Shown here: one piece after another, positions 20,278 through 57,024 of the stretch
How positions within the stretch are numbered: the stretch's first letter is position 1
Layout: each line of letters begins with the position of its first letter
DNA from: Phycisphaerales bacterium
GTDB lineage: Bacteria; Planctomycetota; Phycisphaerae; Phycisphaerales; UBA1924
Direction of reading: 5' to 3'
Assembly (NCBI GenBank): GCA_020846975.1
Contig: JADLCX010000071.1
Location: 1 to 64,000, forward strand
Length of the DNA stretch: 64,000 nucleotides
Position numbers and translations under genes: made by a program
Notes under the pieces: generated by a model
Seen by the model: only the letters and a program-made list of their open reading frames with translations
Database searches by the model: none
What the model was told of the DNA's origin: nothing

Positions 20278-22584
20278 GTGACGCCCCCCGCCCAAGCTGA
20301 TGTGTCCCGTGCCGCCGATGCGCACCCGCGCTTCGCCCGCCAGCGCCCCTTCGAGGTCGTCAGCCCCTTCAAGCCCACCGGCGATCAGCCCGCGGCGATC
20401 GAGCAACTCTCCCGCGACATTCTTGCGGGCCGCGAATGCGTCACGCTCCTGGGCGCAACCGGCACGGGCAAGACGTTCACCATGGCCAACGTCATCGCCC
20501 GCCTCGGCAAGCCCACGCTCATCCTGAGCCACAACAAAACCCTCGCCGCCCAGCTCTTCGAGGAGATGCGCGAGCTGTTCCCAAACAACAGCGTCAACTA
20601 CTTCGTCTCCTACTACGACTACTACCAGCCCGAAGCCTACATCCCGCAGCGTGACATCTACATCGAGAAGGATTCCAGCAAGAACGAGGAGCTCGATCAA
20701 CTCCGCCTGGCCGCAACCAGCAACATCCTCTCGCGGCGCGACACCATCGTCGTCGCGAGCGTCTCGTGCATCTTCGGCCTCGGCTCGCCCATCGCCTACA
20801 ACCAGCGAGTGCTCACCATCACGCGCGGCGCGGTCATCAACCGACGGGAGTTCCTGCTCGCGATGGCCGCGATGCAGTACCAGCGGGCCGACATCGAGTT
20901 CGCACGCGCCAAGTTCCGCGTCCGCGGCGACTCCATCGAGGTCTGGCCCGCCTACGAGAAGTACGCGGTCCGTGTGGAGCTCTTCGGCGATCAGATCGAG
21001 AAGATCGAGCTCATCAACCCCGCCAGCGGCGAGATCATCGCGGAAGAAAAGCAGTTCTTCCTGTTCCCCGCCGTCCACTACGTGCTCGGCGACGACGAGA
21101 TCGCCCCCATTATCCAGAAGATCCGGGCCGAACTCGACGCCCGCGTCATCGAGCTGCGCTCGCAAGGCAAGCTTCTGGAGGCCCAGCGACTCCTGGCCCG
21201 GACCAGGTACGACCTCGAGATGATCGAGGAGGTCGGGTTCTGCAACGGCATCGAGAACTACTCGCGGTTCTTCGACGGCCGCATGCCCGGAGAGCGCCCG
21301 TACACGCTGCTCGACTATTTCGACTTTGCGCCGAGCGGCGAAGGACCCGCGAAGGTGCGGAGCGGCGGGCCCGACACGGACCCGCCACGCGCGCCGACCG
21401 CCCACCCGGCCGTCGCATCCGCGGATCACCCGGGCGCGGAGCCCGCGGCCCTGCGTTCCAACCACAAGGACTGGCTCATCATCATCGACGAGTCGCATGT
21501 CACGATTCCCCAGGTTCGCGCCATGTTCAACGGCGATCGCAACCGCAAGACGGTCCTCGTCGAGCACGGCTTCCGGCTCCCGTCCGCGCTCGACAACCGC
21601 CCGCTCCGCTTCGAGGAGTTCGAGTCCGTCGTGCCGCGGATGTTGTTCGTCAGCGCGACGCCCGGCGAATACGAACTTCGGCGCTGCTCGGGTGTCGTCG
21701 CCGAACAGGTCATCCGACCCACCGGTCTTGTGGACCCGGTCATCGAGGTCAGGCCCGCGCAGGGCCAGATCGCCGACCTCCTCCAGCGGTGCCAGGACCG
21801 CGTCGCCCGTGGCGAGCGCATCCTCGTGACCGCCCTCACCAAGCGGCTCTGCGAAGACCTCGCCGCGTACCTCGACGAGAAGGGGCTCCGCGTCCGATAC
21901 CTGCACAGCGAGATCGAGACGCTCGAGCGCGTCCAGATCCTCAACGATCTCCGCACGGGCGAGTTCGATGTGCTCGTCGGCGTCAACCTGCTGCGCGAAG
22001 GCCTCGACCTCCCCGAGGTCTCGCTGGTGTGCATCCTCGATGCCGACAAGGAGGGGTTCCTCCGCTCTCCCACGAGCCTGATCCAGCAGATGGGCCGCGC
22101 CGCGCGCAACGTCAACGCCACCGTGATCATGTACGCCGACAAGGTCACGCCCGCGATGGACGCGGCCATGAAGGAGACCGATCGCCGGCGCGCCAAGCAG
22201 ATCGCCTACAACACCGAGCACAACATCACCCCGCAGACGATCGTGAAGTCCATCCGTCGCGGTCTCGAAGCCGAACTCAAGGCCCGCCGCACCGCCCGCG
22301 ACGCCGTCAAGGAGACCGAGCAGGCCTTCGAGGTCAGCGAACTCGTCAACCAACTCGAAGAAGAGATGCTCGAAGCCGCCCAGAACCTTGAGTTCGAGAA
22401 GGCCGCACGCCTCCGCGATCAGGTCCGCCGACTCAAGTCCCAGCCCTCCGGCGCCTCCGCCCGCATCAAGCGCTCCGACCTCGACCCATCGGGCCCCGCG
22501 GATGCCTCCGCCCGCGGCTCAAAGCCCGGCATGCCCGGCGTCCGATCCGGAAAGCGCGGCAAGCGCGCCCGCGGCGGGAGATAA
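20278..22584 (+). CDS. uvrB: Excinuclease ABC subunit B
   Basis: Damage-verification helicase of nucleotide excision repair, working with UvrA and UvrC. 768 aa from a GTG start. Walker A GATGTGKT near residue 60, the beta-hairpin region YYDYYQPEAYIP, DESH box near 402, and a C-terminal UVR motif (LEEEMLEAAQNLEFEKAARL). Two departures from the usual 670 aa: a Pro/Ala/Gly-rich insert of about 45 residues just before the DESH strand (about 350-395), and a basic, Gly/Ser/Arg-rich tail of about 50 residues after the UVR motif. Core motifs are intact, so it should be active. Confidence 0.96.
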   Translation: MTPPAQADVSRAADAHPRFARQRPFEVVSPFKPTGDQPAAIEQLSRDILAGRECVTLLGATGTGKTFTMANVIARLGKPTLILSHNKTLAAQLFEEMRELFPNNSVNYFVSYYDYYQPEAYIPQRDIYIEKDSSKNEELDQLRLAATSNILSRRDTIVVASVSCIFGLGSPIAYNQRVLTITRGAVINRREFLLAMAAMQYQRADIEFARAKFRVRGDSIEVWPAYEKYAVRVELFGDQIEKIELINPASGEIIAEEKQFFLFPAVHYVLGDDEIAPIIQKIRAELDARVIELRSQGKLLEAQRLLARTRYDLEMIEEVGFCNGIENYSRFFDGRMPGERPYTLLDYFDFAPSGEGPAKVRSGGPDTDPPRAPTAHPAVASADHPGAEPAALRSNHKDWLIIIDESHVTIPQVRAMFNGDRNRKTVLVEHGFRLPSALDNRPLRFEEFESVVPRMLFVSATPGEYELRRCSGVVAEQVIRPTGLVDPVIEVRPAQGQIADLLQRCQDRVARGERILVTALTKRLCEDLAAYLDEKGLRVRYLHSEIETLERVQILNDLRTGEFDVLVGVNLLREGLDLPEVSLVCILDADKEGFLRSPTSLIQQMGRAARNVNATVIMYADKVTPAMDAAMKETDRRRAKQIAYNTEHNITPQTIVKSIRRGLEAELKARRTARDAVKETEQAFEVSELVNQLEEEMLEAAQNLEFEKAARLRDQVRRLKSQPSGASARIKRSDLDPSGPADASARGSKPGMPGVRSGKRGKRARGGR

Positions 22585-24195: not shown

Positions 24196-24900
24196 CTACG
24201 CCGCCACCCGCGCCGCCGCCCCGCTCCCGCTCGCCCGCCACGCCGCGTCATACGAGGCCCGTTTGTCCGGGCTCTTGAGCACGTCGTACGCCTTGTGAAG
24301 CTCGATGAACTTCGCCTGAGCCTCGGGAGAGGGGTTGAGGTCGGGGTGCACGCGCCGGGCCTGCTCGCGGAACGCCCGGTGAATGTCGGTGTCCGTCGCG
24401 GCCGGCGCGACACCCAGCAGCGCGTACAGGTCTGGAAGCTGGACCGAGACCGAAGCCGCCACGGTGCGCTGTGCGGGGTCGGCCTGTTCCTTCGCCGCCG
24501 CGCGCCGTCCCGCGCCCTTGATGCACCCGTGCCGGGCCAGGCTGTCGAGCGCGGCGCTCAGTTCCGGCGTGACCTGCTGAAACTCGATGCCGATCTCGAA
24601 GCCCATGGGCCTGCGCTTCTGCACTCGCGCCACCCGCCCGACGACCAGCAGTTCATCGGTCGGCGACTGCAGTTCGAGCCGCACCAGATCGCCCAGTCCC
24701 AGCGGCGGAGCCTTGCCGCACTCCACGCACATGCCGCACGACGACAGGTCCGCGACCTGGCCAAGCATGCACGAGACAACAGCCGTCTGAAACCTGGGCG
24801 CGCGGCGACTCTCGGCGCCTCGATCGGGCGTCTGCGCGGCCGCGTTTTCCGCGGGTCTGGCGGACTTTCGGAACCAGCCCATCACGTCAATCGTCGGCAT
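24196..24900 (-). CDS. PilZ domain fused to a DnaJ J-domain
   Basis: 234 aa. N-terminal PilZ domain at about 30-130 with both c-di-GMP signatures intact: RRAPR (RxxxR) near residue 32 and DLSSCG (D/N-x-S-x-x-G) near 52. After a short linker, residues about 155-225 are a J-domain: LYALLGVAPAATDTDIHRAF, the HPD tripeptide in RRVHPDLNP, and a closing KAYDVLKSPDKRASYD helix. The J-domain should stimulate a DnaK-type ATPase, and the PilZ half should make this depend on c-di-GMP; this is inference. It lies 127 bases downstream of the FHA-PilB gene on the same strand. An internal ATG at 24882 (MGWFRK) is an alternative start. Confidence 0.85.
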   Translation of the reverse strand: MPTIDVMGWFRKSARPAENAAAQTPDRGAESRRAPRFQTAVVSCMLGQVADLSSCGMCVECGKAPPLGLGDLVRLELQSPTDELLVVGRVARVQKRRPMGFEIGIEFQQVTPELSAALDSLARHGCIKGAGRRAAAKEQADPAQRTVAASVSVQLPDLYALLGVAPAATDTDIHRAFREQARRVHPDLNPSPEAQAKFIELHKAYDVLKSPDKRASYDAAWRASGSGAAARVAA

Positions 24901-25027: not shown

Positions 25028-26725
25028 TCAGCGCGCCGTGGCTACCCGATCGACCTCTTCCAGCGTGGTCACACCCCGCGCGACCTGCACCCAGCCGGAC
25101 TGCACCAGCGTCGTGAACATCCCCGATTCGATGACCCGCTTCATGGCCGCGATCGTCGGTTCCTTGATGATGACATCCCGCAACTCGTCGGTGAAGTCGA
25201 GCACCTCGTAGATCGCCTTGCGGCCGCGATACCCCGTGCGCAGACACGCCGCGCAGCCCGTGGCCATCTGGATCTCGGTCTGGTTTTCGAGGTATCGACC
25301 CATGCGCGTCGCCTGGCTCGGGGTCACTCGAACAGGCCGCTTGCAGTTCTCGCACAACACCCGCACCAGCCGCTGCGCCAGCACCACCTCGAGCGAGTTG
25401 GCGACCAGGTACGACTCGACCTTGAGATCGAGCAGACGAAACACGCTGCTCATGGTGTCCTTGGCGTGCACGGTCGAGAAGACAAGGTGCCCGGTCATCG
25501 ACGCCTGCATCGCCGTCCGCGCCGTCTCCTCGTCGCGAATCTCGCCGACAAGGATCACGTCCGGATCCTGCCGCAGCACGCTGCGCAGCAGGCTGCCGAA
25601 GGTGTTGCCCTTGTGCTCGTCGATCGGAATCTGAGTCACGTTGTCGAGGTGGTACTCGACCGGGTCCTCGATCGTGATCACGTTGCGGCGCTCGCGGTCG
25701 ATCTCGCGCAGGCAGTTGTAGAGCGTCGTGGTCTTGCCCGAGCCGGTCGGCCCGCACACCAGCAGCAGGCCCGCCTCCTGCTCGCAGACCTTGCGCACCC
25801 GGTCGTACATGTACGGCGGCAGACCCAGGTCGCCCATGCTCTTGGGCGCATCGCGCTGATCGAGCACCCGCACCACCAGCTTCTGGCCGTGCACGCTGGG
25901 CGTAAAACTGATCCGGTAATCGACCCGCCTCGCCGAAGCGCCCTCGGTCTGCCCGAACCGGACCGAGAAGTGCCCATCGAGCACGGCCTCGCGCCCGGTG
26001 GGTCGCATCTGGCACGCGGTCTTGACCAGCCCGTTGACCAGTTCACCCACGTTGTTGGGCAGGTTGACCACGTTCACCATCTGCCCGTCGATGCGCATGC
26101 GCACCTGAACGCTGTCGCCCTTGGGCTCGATATGGATGTCCGTCGCCCGCGCCTTTCCCGCAGAGAGCAGCAGCAGCCGCGCCGCACGCGACCCTTCGCC
26201 CTCGCCCGCGAGCGCGGCCGAAGCCTTGCCACGCCCGTCGATCATCTCGATCGGGTCCTCAACGCCGGTGTTTCGCGGCGGGAGCATGTTGATCAGTTCC
26301 TTGAGGTCGGTCACCCAGGTCGGTTCCTCCCCGCCGGAAAGCGCCGCCTCGCTCCGAGCCTGCTCCTGCCGCTCTTTGAGCGTCTCTTCCGCCTCCAGCA
26401 CGAACGTGTGGTTGCCCACCTTGATCACATCACCGGGCCGCAGGACCGAGTCGGTGATCTTGACCCCGTTGAGCTTGGTCCCGTTCCGCGAGCCCAGATC
26501 ACGCACGCGAAAACTCGGCGACTCGGCATCCTCGGTCTCATCCACGCCCATCTCACCGTTCCGACCGTGCGGCCCCGCCGGCTCGATCACGCAATGGAAC
26601 CGGGAGAGCAGCGTGTCCTCGACCGCCAATGCGTTCTCGGGCGATCTCCCGATGGAAACCGCCTTGTCGGAAAGCTGGGCGCTGAGCCGCGAGTCGTTCA
26701 GGGATGTGAGGTGATAGGCGGGCAT
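25028..26725 (-). CDS. PilB/GspE-type secretion ATPase with N-terminal FHA domain
   Basis: 565 aa from the ATG at 26725 (MPAYHLTSLNDSRLS). Residues about 10-110 are an FHA phosphothreonine-binding domain (VSIGRSPENAL, SRFHCVIEP, DLGSRNGTKLNG). The rest is a type II/IV secretion ATPase: ATDIHIEPKGDSVQVRMRID, Walker A GPTGSGKTTT, Walker B VILVGEIRDEET, and a zinc site made of CENC and CAAC. The FHA domain stands where MshEN/GspE N-terminal domains normally sit, so recruitment to a pilus or secretion machine may depend on phosphorylation. No other pilus or secretion gene is in the window. It is divergent from serS. Confidence 0.88.
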   Translation of the reverse strand: MPAYHLTSLNDSRLSAQLSDKAVSIGRSPENALAVEDTLLSRFHCVIEPAGPHGRNGEMGVDETEDAESPSFRVRDLGSRNGTKLNGVKITDSVLRPGDVIKVGNHTFVLEAEETLKERQEQARSEAALSGGEEPTWVTDLKELINMLPPRNTGVEDPIEMIDGRGKASAALAGEGEGSRAARLLLLSAGKARATDIHIEPKGDSVQVRMRIDGQMVNVVNLPNNVGELVNGLVKTACQMRPTGREAVLDGHFSVRFGQTEGASARRVDYRISFTPSVHGQKLVVRVLDQRDAPKSMGDLGLPPYMYDRVRKVCEQEAGLLLVCGPTGSGKTTTLYNCLREIDRERRNVITIEDPVEYHLDNVTQIPIDEHKGNTFGSLLRSVLRQDPDVILVGEIRDEETARTAMQASMTGHLVFSTVHAKDTMSSVFRLLDLKVESYLVANSLEVVLAQRLVRVLCENCKRPVRVTPSQATRMGRYLENQTEIQMATGCAACLRTGYRGRKAIYEVLDFTDELRDVIIKEPTIAAMKRVIESGMFTTLVQSGWVQVARGVTTLEEVDRVATAR

Positions 26726-26826
26726 CTCGGGGAGAACTGAGGGGACCTTCGTCAGCCGGAACGATGATAAGGCCTGAGCGTGCACGGTGCGACTCCAAAA
26801 CGGTCGGCGGCTTACCATCCCGCCCC

Positions 26827-38962: not shown

Positions 38963-40528
38963 ATGGTGAGCCGGAAGAAGACCAGCAAGAAGGCCGAGCG
39001 GAAATCCAAGCGAGGGGACGGGGGGCTTGATTCGTCCCCCCTCCCCCCCGCGCCCCGCACGCCCGCGCCGCGCGGCGGTCGTCCTTCGGCCCTTATCGAT
39101 ACCCGGGTGATCTACTGCGGTGACAACCTCGAACAGCTCGCCAAGCTGCCGGATGCCTGCATCGACCTGATCTACATTGATCCGCCCTTCAACTCCAACC
39201 GCAACTATGAGGTCTTCTGGGGCGAGACCAAGGAGAAGCGTTCGTTCGAGGACCGGCACGCGAGCACGCAGGCGTACATCGACTACATGCGGCCGCGCTG
39301 CGTCGAGCTGGCTCGCGTGCTCAAGAAGACGGGGAGTTTCTACTACCACTGCGACGATCATGCAAGCCACTACGTCAAGGTGATGCTAGATCAGGTGTTC
39401 GGGCACCAGTTCTTTCAAAACGAGATCGCTTGGAAGCGCACTGGCGCACGCGGCGACGGATTCGCATGGAACCAATTGCACGACACACTCTTTCTATACA
39501 GCCGGTCTGCCGAGTTCACGTTCCACAGGCAGTTTGAGGAGTACGGCGACGAGTATCTGGAGACGAAATACCGCTACGACGACGGTGACGGGCGAAAGTA
39601 CCGCCTTGACAACATGACCAGCCCGAATCCACGGCCGAACATGATGTACGAGTGGAAAGGGCACGCTTCGCCAGAGAAGGGGTGGCGGTACTCCAAGGAA
39701 ACGATGGCCGAACTTGATGCCGACGGGCGTGTCTGGTACCCGAAAGACAAGTCCAAACGGCCGCAGCTGAAAAGGTACCTCGACGAGATGCAGGGCATCC
39801 CGATGGGAAGCGTGTGGACCGACATCGCGCCGATCAACTCTCAGGCCCAGGAGCGACTCGGCTACCCAACCCAGAAGCCTCTGGCTCTGCTCGAACGCAT
39901 CGTGAGCGCGAGCAGCAACCCCAACGACATCGTCCTCGACGCCTTCTGCGGGTGCGGCACCGCGCTCGTCGCCGCCCAGAACCTCGGCCGCCAGTGGATC
40001 GGCATCGACATCTCACCCACCGCCTGCCGCGTCATGGCCAAACGCCTCCGCGATGTCTGCAAGATGCGTGAGAGCGAGCCTGGTCGTCGGGCCGGTGACA
40101 AGAACTCCTTTATTGTCCGCGACCTGCCGTGGACCGTCGAGAAGCTCAAGGCCATCCCTCCCTTCGAGTTCGAGAACTGGGCCGTGATCGCCCTCGGCGG
40201 CATCCCCAACAAGGTCCAGGTCGGCGACATGGGCATCGATGGCCGCATCTTCCCCGTCGGCACCAAGCCCAGCGATGCCCACAGCATGTTCGCGGGCGAC
40301 TGGTTCCCCATCCAGGTCAAGCAGATGGACAAGGTCGGTCGGCCCGACATCGACCAGTTCGAGGCCGTCATGGCCCGCGAGGACCGCCAGCGCGGCTTCT
40401 TCATCGCCTTCGGCTTCTCATCCGATGCCGAGGCCGAGTGCGCCGCGTTCTTCAAGAAAACCAAGCGCGTCATCAAGCTCATCACGGTTCAAGAGATTCT
40501 GGATGAGCAGCACGTGCAGAAGATGTAG
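38963..40528 (+). CDS. DNA methyltransferase fused to Mrr-type nuclease domain
   Basis: 521 aa. A Lys/Arg-rich start is followed by a beta-class amino-methyltransferase: DLIYIDPPFNSNRNY (motif IV) near residue 70, a central target-recognition part, and VLDAFCGCGTALVAAQNLGR (SAM site) near 320. The last 140 residues look like an Mrr-type PD-(D/E)xK nuclease: FENWAVIALGG, VGDMGIDG, WFPIQVKQ, and GFFIAFGFSSDAEAECAAF. The candidate catalytic set is the Asp of GID and the QVK triad. One polypeptide could thus modify and cut DNA. Codons at about 39385-39890 use many A/T-ending forms unlike either flank. A small gene follows, coupled through a stop-overlapping ribosome site. Confidence 0.88.
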   Translation: MVSRKKTSKKAERKSKRGDGGLDSSPLPPAPRTPAPRGGRPSALIDTRVIYCGDNLEQLAKLPDACIDLIYIDPPFNSNRNYEVFWGETKEKRSFEDRHASTQAYIDYMRPRCVELARVLKKTGSFYYHCDDHASHYVKVMLDQVFGHQFFQNEIAWKRTGARGDGFAWNQLHDTLFLYSRSAEFTFHRQFEEYGDEYLETKYRYDDGDGRKYRLDNMTSPNPRPNMMYEWKGHASPEKGWRYSKETMAELDADGRVWYPKDKSKRPQLKRYLDEMQGIPMGSVWTDIAPINSQAQERLGYPTQKPLALLERIVSASSNPNDIVLDAFCGCGTALVAAQNLGRQWIGIDISPTACRVMAKRLRDVCKMRESEPGRRAGDKNSFIVRDLPWTVEKLKAIPPFEFENWAVIALGGIPNKVQVGDMGIDGRIFPVGTKPSDAHSMFAGDWFPIQVKQMDKVGRPDIDQFEAVMAREDRQRGFFIAFGFSSDAEAECAAFFKKTKRVIKLITVQEILDEQHVQKM

Positions 40529-53441: not shown

Positions 53442-54452
53442 CTACGCGCCCTGCCCGCCGTGCGCCGCGGGATCGGTTCCGGCGATAGCGCCGCGCATGG
53501 CGGTGTCGGCCTGCACGTTGCGCATCTTGTAGTAATCCATGATCCCGAGGTTGCCCTTGCGGAAAGCCTCGGCCATGGCCTTGGGCACCTCGGCCTCGGC
53601 GAGCACGACCAGCGCCCGGTTCTCCTGCACCTTGGCCTTGAACTCCTGCTCCTGCGCCGTAGCGAGGGCGCGTCGGGTCTCCGCCGCCGCCTGGGCCTTG
53701 CGTTTGTCGGCCTCGGCCTGATCGGTCTGGAGTTTGGCGCCGATGTTCTCGCCGACATCGATGTCGGCGATATCGATCGAGAGGATCTCGAAAGCGGTTC
53801 CGGCGTCGAGCCCCTGCTTCATCACGGTCTTGGTGATCTCGTCGGGGTTCTCGAGCACCTGCTTGTGGTCCTCGGCGGAGCCGATGGTGGAGACGATGCC
53901 CTGGCCGACGCGGGCGATGACCGTCTCTTCGGTCGCGCCGCCGACGAGCTGGCCGATGTTGGTGCGGACGGTGACCCGCGCCTTGACCTTGAGCTGGATG
54001 CCGTTCTTGGCGACCGCGTCGATGGTCGGGCGCGGGCTGGAAGCGCTCGGGATGTCGATGATCTTGGGGTTCACGCTTGTCTGAACGGCGTCGAGGATGT
54101 CGCGGCCGGCGAGGTCGATGGCCGTCGCGGTCTCCCACGGGAGATTGATCCGCGCGCCCTTCGCGGCGATGATCGCGTTGATGACGGCCGGCACACGCCC
54201 GCCGGCGAGGTAGTGCGTCTCGATCTTGCTGGTGGGGATGTCCAGACCCGCCTTGACCGCCCGGATGCGCGAATAGACCACCACGCGCGGATCGACCTTG
54301 CGCAGCTTCATGCCGATCAACTCGGTAACCCCGACGCGGGCGTTGCTGAACAGGGCCTGAAAGTAGAGGCTGGCGAAACTGAACGCGATGATCGCGCCCA
54401 CGAGGAAGATGATCGCGAGGATCGCGCCGACGACAATCTGCCAGGTTTCCAT
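53442..54452 (-). CDS. floA: Flotillin-like protein FloA
   Basis: 336 aa from the ATG at 54452 ([20 protein letters not shown]). A membrane hairpin at about 5-30, then SPFH-type domain ([56 protein letters not shown]), and an Ala/Glu/Lys coiled coil (about 235-310). Flotillins organise membrane microdomains. Genes of NfeD type are next upstream on the same strand (54580 and 55249), a standard partnership in bacteria. Confidence 0.93.
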
Positions 54453-54579
54453 CGAGCGGGTCTCCGGTTGGGTCGCACACAGTATACGGGACCGGACGAC
54501 CGACGATTCACGCCGCGGCGCCTCGAAACCGCCCGCGCGGGACCGTGCTCGGGCGCGGCCGCACGAAAACCGGTCCCAA

Positions 54580-55089
54580 TCACGCGTGCGCCGAATCGTC
54601 CGCCGGGCGAACGCGCACCTGCATCGCATCGGACCCCGTTACCCGCACGCGCGTGCCCGAACGCACAAACGCGATCTCCGACATGGCGGCGACCCGCTTG
54701 TCGCCGATACGGATGAAGCCGCCGGGCCGCAGGTCGGTGAGCGTGAGCCCTTCCTCGCCGATCAGCGCCTCGAACTCGGCCCCCGGCGACGGCGCGGGCG
54801 CGCCGCCGTCCAGCGCATCGGGAGGCAGGTTCAGCATCTTCTTGCCCATCGCGGTCGATGGGAAGATCTGCAGCCCGACGAAGACAATGGTCGGCCCGAT
54901 GATGGCGATCGCGAGCAGCCCGCTCATTCCCCATCGCCAGTCATACCGGAACAGGCAGACCACCCCGCCGATGGCGACGCACGCGGAGGTGACGCCGAGA
55001 ACGCCGGCCGTCGGCACGAACACTTCGATGATCAGCAGCAGGGCCGCGAGGGACAGGAGCCCCACACCCCAGTAGACGAGAGATTCCAT
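54580..55089 (-). CDS. Short NfeD-family membrane protein
   Basis: 169 aa from the ATG at 55089 ([20 protein letters not shown]). About four membrane helices in the first 90 residues, then the NfeD OB-fold domain ([20 protein letters not shown], then [20 protein letters not shown]). It stands between floA and the long NfeD gene, fitting the nfeD-floA pair. The frame upstream to 55209 runs into the dispersed element and is excluded. Confidence 0.85.
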
Positions 55090-55125
55090 GGCGGTAGCGT
55101 AGCGGGTGGCGTTCGGAACGGGTGA

Positions 55126-55236
55126 AGTCCAAGTTTGTGGTGGCGAGAACCGGGGACGGGGTGCCCCGCCTCTCCGAGGCGGCCGGCGCGCCTTGCACGC
55201 CCCGTTCACTGTCCGCGTCGGAGACGCAGGGTGCCC
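55126..55236. repeat. 78-bp intergenic element, copy B, with conserved left flank
   Basis: Flank 55126-55144 and core 55159-55236; a 14-base extra segment separates them. The core is the reverse complement of 37226-37303, same length, about 9 mismatches. It lies between the two NfeD genes, within 13 bases of the long NfeD stop, so it is probably transcribed in their mRNA. Confidence 0.85.
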
Positions 55237-55248
55237 AGGAAGCGTCGC

Positions 55249-57024
55249 TCAGACCTTCTCGACGACCGTCCTGAACTGCTCGATCGCGACGATGCGCACC
55301 GGGGTGTCGGCGTCGATGAACCCCATGTCGGCGACCACATCGACGATCCGGCCGTCGATCTCGACTCGCCCGGATGGTCGCAGCGGCGTGATCGTCCGTC
55401 CGATCGAGCCGATGCGGACCGCGCCGCCGCCATCGCCCATCGCGGCGAGCAGGCCCTCTGTCGAATCCTCGGCCGGCGAGTTGCTCAGCACGAACCGGCG
55501 GAAAACCGGGAGCGTCGGCAGGTGCTTGGCCGTGTAGTACATCAGCACGAACGCCGTGGCCATCGAGATGAGCACCGTCAGCGTGCCGAACGCCAGCTCG
55601 TTGCGGGCGCGCGGCGACGTGGGGAACAGACCCGACGGCCCGCCCACGAACACGCCGATCAGCCCGCCGAAGAGCAGGATCGCGCCGCAGACCCCGAAAA
55701 CCCCGAATCCCGGGATGAGCAGGATTTCGACCGCGAGCAGGGCGATCCCGAGCACGATCGCGGCGACGCTCCACCACGCCGCCAGATCGACCAGCACGGG
55801 CGGGACGATCAGGGCGATCAGCGCGCACAGCGCGACCGCGCCCGGAAGCGCGACCCCGGGGTGGGTCATCTCCACGAACAGGGCGAGCAGGAAGATCACG
55901 ATCAGCACGCCGCGCGAGATCGGGTGGGTCAGAAACCGCGCCAGCCCTTCGGACCATGTCTCGTTGAGCCGTGCCACGCTCGATGCGCCGAAGCGGGCCT
56001 TCAGATCGTCATCGCTCTTCACCACCGCCTGCGCCAGGCCGTAGCGGATCATCGACGCGGACTTGAGCACCACCAGCCCGTGCCCATCGCTGACGTACTC
56101 GACCAGACGGTACTTGCCCGCCTGGTCCGGCGCGGCGAGATCGGGGCGGTCGGACCTGGCCCCCTTGATCTCGAGCGTCGCGTTGACCTCTCGCGCCAGC
56201 ACCGGCGAAGTACCCGGCGCGGCAGGGACATAGACAGTCGAGGGATCACCGGGCGTCGGCGACGCGGATGATGATGGCACGGGGCGCGTCGGGAGCGGCT
56301 GGCCGCCGCCGCCGGTGGCGCCGGTCGCCGATGGGATGTACGGCGTGCTCCGCACAGGCTCCTCGCCGGTGGCGAGCTGGTACTGCGATTCGGTGACGAA
56401 CAGCCGCCGGCCCGTCGTGGTGTGCTCAACCAGCCAGAGTTCGACGCCGCGGCGGACAAAGCCCTGCACCAGCATCTCGTCCTGGTTGTTGCGACGCGCG
56501 GAATCGACCACCTCGCTCAGCAGGGGGCCGAGCAGCTTCTCTCGCTCGGCCTCCGGGAGCTTCTGAATGCCTGTCAGCGGGTCGTACGCGATGGGCAGCG
56601 CGTCGCCCATCGTCGCGGGATCGTTGACGACGATCTCGCGGCAGGCCAGGGCGATGATCGCGCCGGCGGAGTAGGCGTTGGGGTTGATCCACGCCGTGGT
56701 GTTGCCGATCGGGCACGCCTTGATCGCGTTGCAGATCTTGAGGCACGCGCCCAGTTCGCCCCCGGGCGTGTCAATGTCGAAGACGATCGCGCCCGCGCCG
56801 TCGGCGACGGCCCGCTTGATGCGGCGATCAACGCCGTAGGCGGTCCAGTTGTCGATCTCGCCGTGGATGCTGATGACGGCGACGTTGGCGGCGGCGCGGG
56901 AGGCTGGGACGGCCGCGGGGAGAGGGGGCGGGACCGGCGACTGAGCCGGCGCGCCCGTCCACGCGCCCACCAGCACGAGCATGGCGTAAGCCAACCAGCG
57001 GAACTGTGACAGACTGCGTGCCAT
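55249..57024 (-). CDS. NfeD/ClpP-type membrane serine protease
   Basis: 591 aa. Signal peptide (WLAYAMLVLVGAWTGAPAQ), then a ClpP/SppA-like protease domain: IDNWTAYGVDRRIKRAV, VFDIDTPGGELG, and INPNAYSAGAIIALACREIV with the candidate catalytic Ser. A Pro/Thr-rich insert (about 235-275) divides it. The C terminus has four or five membrane helices (about 380-500) and an NfeD OB-fold (IGSIGRTITPLRPSGRVEID). Such proteins cleave membrane stomatin/flotillin partners, and floA is just downstream. Confidence 0.9.
   Translation of the reverse strand: MARSLSQFRWLAYAMLVLVGAWTGAPAQSPVPPPLPAAVPASRAAANVAVISIHGEIDNWTAYGVDRRIKRAVADGAGAIVFDIDTPGGELGACLKICNAIKACPIGNTTAWINPNAYSAGAIIALACREIVVNDPATMGDALPIAYDPLTGIQKLPEAEREKLLGPLLSEVVDSARRNNQDEMLVQGFVRRGVELWLVEHTTTGRRLFVTESQYQLATGEEPVRSTPYIPSATGATGGGGQPLPTRPVPSSSASPTPGDPSTVYVPAAPGTSPVLAREVNATLEIKGARSDRPDLAAPDQAGKYRLVEYVSDGHGLVVLKSASMIRYGLAQAVVKSDDDLKARFGASSVARLNETWSEGLARFLTHPISRGVLIVIFLLALFVEMTHPGVALPGAVALCALIALIVPPVLVDLAAWWSVAAIVLGIALLAVEILLIPGFGVFGVCGAILLFGGLIGVFVGGPSGLFPTSPRARNELAFGTLTVLISMATAFVLMYYTAKHLPTLPVFRRFVLSNSPAEDSTEGLLAAMGDGGGAVRIGSIGRTITPLRPSGRVEIDGRIVDVVADMGFIDADTPVRIVAIEQFRTVVEKV

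Follow-up and report, generated by a model that had tools for sequence, protein, structure and literature searches.

c-di-GMP is known chiefly for its control of motility, adhesion, and polysaccharide synthesis. Its PilZ receptors, such as YcgR, Alg44, BcsA, MrkH, and MotI, share a beta-barrel and the motifs RxxxR and DxSxxG, and they have no J domain. PilZ domains also occur on the same polypeptide as domains of the Hsp70 system: four of the 24 PilZ proteins of Myxococcus xanthus carry a DnaK or a DnaJ domain, and all 24 of these genes have been deleted, with no motility, EPS, or development phenotype except for plpA, pixA, pixB, and pkn1 (PMC8316039). Two M. xanthus PilZ-DnaK chaperones, CsdK1 and CsdK2, have an N-terminal PilZ domain joined to the Hsp70 system, and a link between c-di-GMP and a chaperone client has been proposed for them; mutation of the c-di-GMP motif of CsdK2 left client binding unaffected (PMC10313047). 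CbpA, like the J-domain proteins of classes B and C in general, has a J domain with an HPD motif, and the co-chaperone activity of CbpA is controlled by another protein, CbpM (PMC4063869).

The window, by which we mean the entire 64,000-nucleotide stretch of DNA analyzed here, encodes a protein in which an N-terminal PilZ domain is fused to a C-terminal J domain (PilZ-J). The combination of PilZ with an Hsp70-system domain, DnaJ included, is not wholly new given the M. xanthus proteins, but those belong to the Myxococcota and have been studied only by gene deletion (we set them apart by description, not by sequence), whereas the family described here extends across an order of another phylum and has its own short-hairpin PilZ subtype. 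It differs from CsdK1 and CsdK2 in that PilZ is fused to a J domain and not to DnaK itself, and from CbpA in lacking a client-binding beta-sandwich or G/F region and in carrying its additional module, PilZ, in cis. The initial annotation of this locus knew of no characterized example of such a fusion, a statement to be qualified in view of the M. xanthus deletions and the work on CsdK1 and CsdK2. No study of the biochemistry of PilZ-J proteins was found in the literature searched, which covers few subscription papers.

Domain organization and predicted structure

The features of the locus, all on the minus strand, are as follows.

24196..24900, minus strand: open reading frame of the PilZ-J-domain protein, 234 amino acids from the ATG at 24900
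24523..24813, minus strand: PilZ domain, aa 30-126, a predicted beta-barrel plus C-terminal helix of the short-hairpin subtype
24793..24807, minus strand: RxxxR motif (RRAPR, aa 32-36), from sequence
24733..24750, minus strand: DxSxxG motif (DLSSCG, aa 51-56), from sequence
24433..24522, minus strand: linker, aa 127-156, with mostly low pLDDT
24247..24432, minus strand: J domain, aa 157-218, a full-length match to PF00226
24340..24348, minus strand: HPD motif (aa 185-187), from sequence
25028..26818, minus strand: FHA domain plus type II/IV secretion ATPase (GspE/PilB type), directly upstream of the PilZ-J gene across a gap of 127 bp

The reading frame is real and has the boundaries first assigned to it, to which we add the strand that had been omitted. 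Because the short M-x-hydrophobic opening of most homologs aligns with M7, translation may instead start at the in-frame ATG at 24882, yielding a protein of 228 amino acids.

Both domains named in the initial annotation exceed their Pfam cutoffs in a domain search, and the three motifs that it read in the protein are all intact. PilZ (PF07238) matches at aa 45-120 (E = 4.7e-8, 33.7 bits against a cutoff of 22.5), and DnaJ (PF00226) matches at aa 157-218 over positions 1-63 of the 63 in the model (E = 8.5e-20, 71.1 bits against a cutoff of 27.8). These scores, and the presence of the same motifs in homologs, exclude a chance resemblance. PilZ and DnaJ are the only Pfam matches in the protein. 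It has the fold and profile of PilZ along with the RxxxR and [D/N]xSxxG motifs of PilZ c-di-GMP receptors; its J domain is also complete, HPD lying where helix II gives way to helix III, and Pfam detects neither a zinc finger nor the G/F-rich region or beta-sandwich that mark classes A and B, which is the makeup of a class C Hsp40. No HSP70 match was found by Pfam in the protein, setting it apart from the PilZ-DnaK (CsdK) type. Among the NCBIfam models matched, no named family corresponds to the PilZ-J fusion, the matches being J-domain families and a subthreshold PilZ-type model.

An AlphaFold model built from an 18-row alignment has a mean pLDDT of 82, with values of >90 over most of the PilZ and J domains and a disordered linker. 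The PilZ half (aa 30-126 of the model, RxxxR included) superimposes on YcgR bound to c-di-GMP (5y6g) with a Z score of 12.6 and an rmsd of 2.0 A over 97 residues, and on Alg44 (4rt1) with a Z score of 11.8; Z scores against the five characterized receptors named above lie at about 9.5 to 12.6. The J half, with predicted helices at 158-162, 170-184, 192-209, and 211-223, resembles CbpA (3ucs; Z, 12.6), T. thermophilus DnaJ, and the J domain in a complex with DnaK (5nro; Z, 10.0). A shared fold is by itself no demonstration of what PilZ-J does.

The PilZ half has one unusual feature, the length of the segment between its two motifs. The RxxxR motif sits near the start of the Pfam PilZ model, and the aspartate of DxSxxG falls near position 29 of that model, whereas R36 and D51 are separated by 14 residues in 49 of 57 homologs. 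The segment is shorter than that of the Pfam model, as it is than those of YcgR, Alg44, BcsA, MrkH, and MotI, and binding of c-di-GMP might be weaker as a result.

Conservation across homologs

Homologs are very divergent, with 22 to 37% identity to the window protein and a mean column identity of 27% in a 57-row alignment, all 57 members of which match both the PilZ and the DnaJ family (Pfam, E <= 0.001). The presumptive ligand residues are nevertheless nearly fixed among 59 homologs: the second arginine of RxxxR (R36) and G56 occur in all 59, D51 (replaced by asparagine in the other two) and S53 each occur in 57, and the first arginine of RxxxR occurs in 53. G47 is also invariant. HPD is intact in 56 of the 59. 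When 200 alignment columns are ranked by relative entropy, H185 is 3rd, P186 11th, D51 12th, S53 13th, G56 14th, D187 16th, and R36 23rd, and by this measure the columns of HPD, DxSxxG, and R36 are under strong constraint.

In the J domain of the window protein, F198, R214, and R178 are kept. The equivalents of E. coli R22, R27, and R36, which count among the DnaK contacts of the J domain in its basic helix II and elsewhere, are H, E, and L.

Exceptions to the motif pattern are few. Two proteins from one genus (L150 and L154, in genomes G449 and G443) have lost HPD from the J domain and retain the PilZ motifs, which is, at the level of motifs, a natural separation of the PilZ and J functions, and a third (L134) has HPE in place of HPD. 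Since HPD is lost or altered in these proteins, not every member of the family has the J function. Two homologs have the order PilZ-J-PilZ (L055 in G025 and L149 in G515); in L055, the first PilZ is without RxxxR, and the second retains it.

Proposed function and alternative explanations

Because invariant ligand residues occur together with HPD, the protein is best read as one that binds c-di-GMP and recruits DnaK. We assign a probability of about 0.5 to the view, drawn from sequence, modeling, and analogy, that it belongs to the class C J-domain proteins, responds to c-di-GMP, and brings DnaK to partners specified by PilZ. The invariant residues and the fold suggest that the N-terminal PilZ domain binds c-di-GMP, and if it behaves as known PilZ proteins do, the bound form would dock on, or release, a partner protein. 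The C-terminal J domain, on its flexible linker, would then carry ATP-loaded DnaK to that partner and, as is expected of the J-domain family, trigger ATP hydrolysis by DnaK through HPD, such that one client complex would be folded, remodeled, or disassembled according to the level of c-di-GMP. PilZ-J would in this manner probably link a c-di-GMP signal to protein folding.

Several observations count against this reading. A PilZ domain may keep its motifs and yet not bind c-di-GMP, as illustrated by PlpA (PMC8316039), and CsdK2, a related PilZ-DnaK protein, does not depend on its c-di-GMP motif for contact with its client (PMC10313047). The 14-residue segment between the PilZ motifs, the different residues at three DnaK-contact positions, and the loss or alteration of HPD in three homologs weigh in the same direction.

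How the two halves would cooperate bears on the first alternative, that of direct gating, in which c-di-GMP on PilZ would open or close the J domain through intramolecular masking of the HPD face, making the protein an on/off co-chaperone switch. This was the model of the initial annotation, whose idea of a c-di-GMP receptor joined to an Hsp70 recruiter is supported by the anatomy of the protein and by how deeply that anatomy is conserved. There are precedents for such control in the masking of the J domain of CbpA by CbpM in trans (PMC4063869), CbpA (3ucs) being among our fold matches, and in the autoinhibitory helices that regulate J domains (PMC13254874), and the PilZ and HPD motifs are conserved together among the 59 homologs. 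But the linker ranges from 17 to 95 residues, with neither its length nor its sequence conserved, and the pTM of the AlphaFold model is 0.50, such that the interdomain arrangement is not confidently modeled; gating itself we therefore consider unlikely. Given this variation in linker length, we favor a tether, in which PilZ picks the place or partner and the J domain supplies DnaK, over a rigid gate.

Slightly less likely again is a constitutive co-chaperone whose PilZ domain is a protein-binding module only, with no sensing of c-di-GMP in vivo, and whose J domain brings DnaK to one and the same partner. The behavior of PlpA, which retains its motif without binding, and of CsdK2 would fit such a protein, but R36, D51, S53, and G56 rank near the top of the alignment in conservation although the sequences are very divergent, and the arginine of RxxxR would have no obvious structural role without a ligand. 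It is improbable that the J domain has a structural or adaptor role within an ordinary PilZ signaling adaptor and does not activate DnaK, for although the few HPD-altered homologs largely keep their PilZ motifs and J-domain proteins with altered HPD motifs exist (PMC13254874), the retention of HPD in nearly all homologs, with F198 and R214 also kept, is unexpected without selection by Hsp70.

Returning to the reading of PilZ-J as a c-di-GMP-responsive recruiter of DnaK, the broader proposition that this is an order-wide, planctomycete-type J-domain family in which the engagement of DnaK, or the place where it happens, is under the direct control of c-di-GMP is a tentative one, to which we give a little short of even odds. 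If true, a cyclic dinucleotide would be wired directly, at the molecular level, to the Hsp70 machinery, and a conserved Hsp70-recruiting receptor would add proteostasis or complex disassembly to the direct outputs of c-di-GMP.

The host has both the signal and the chaperone partner, since its genome has six matches to GGDEF, of which four are strong, and encodes two Hsp70 proteins, one of them clearly DnaK; three other J-domain proteins accompany PilZ-J. Co-occurrence with GGDEF proteins was rejected as support: GGDEF occurs in all of the listed PilZ-J genomes, but 394 of the 400 genomes of the order encode it as well.

Distribution and origin of the fusion

When 400 genomes from the same order were searched with a profile, 119 matches had E <= 1e-34, all covering both domains except that in G013, which covers mainly the J part. 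PilZ-J proteins are present in about 118 of the 400 genomes, in families f1, f2, f3, f5, and f6. They are small (about 200 to 300 residues) and usually single-copy, with G695 the sole exception among these genomes. About 18 full-length matches were obtained among 60 related genomes. Genome counts are lower bounds, since only the top candidates were scored in each genome and the Pfam matches listed for the host genome did not include the window's own PilZ.

In a sample of 392 genomes from the phylum, every match above about 140 bits came from that same order, and no PilZ-J was found outside it. A single-protein scan of genome contigs for PilZ-J found nothing. A second scan, built on aligned closer members, searched with a J-domain pattern only and gave one named PilZ-J, from a Phycisphaerales metagenome-assembled genome (L158), among the 80 loci listed. 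Because this is the only PilZ-J record with a name that was found, the order carrying the family is probably the Phycisphaerales.

Stand-alone PilZ proteins of the short-hairpin subtype are present in these genomes, the window's own included (L002 and L005). Four of the stand-alone proteins (L005, L238, L239, and L243) are of the subtype of the fused domains, with the pattern RRxGRL...CxLGxVxDISxxGMRV, and are without a J domain. In a tree of PilZ domains, built on only 97 columns, all 57 fused domains fall on one side of a branch (support, 98/90), with seven stand-alone domains, these four among them, on the other. This topology fits one fusion event with subsequent losses.

Genomic context

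No conserved gene neighborhood surrounds PilZ-J in 59 loci, where neighbors are common only to small clades, and a scan around the gene in the window found no promoter or terminator. The upstream ATPase gene, whose FHA domain is N-terminal, runs in the same direction as PilZ-J and is only possibly linked to it. An operon-based function was rejected, as the FHA-secretion ATPase is not shared as the upstream neighbor across the 59 loci, and since neighbors are not conserved beyond small clades, it is no guide to the function of PilZ-J. A stand-alone PilZ gene adjoins PilZ-J in 4 of the 59 loci (L058, L129, L145, and L146), two of which are from one genus.

Elsewhere in the window, a single open reading frame at 38963-40528 (plus strand) combines an N4/N6 DNA methylase domain with a C-terminal Mrr-type restriction endonuclease domain. 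UvrB (20278-22584, plus strand; 768 aa) has, by eye, an apparent A/P/G-rich insert of ~45 residues near aa 355-400, before IIIDESH. At 53442-57024 (minus strand), a flotillin-like FloA adjoins an NfeD protein.
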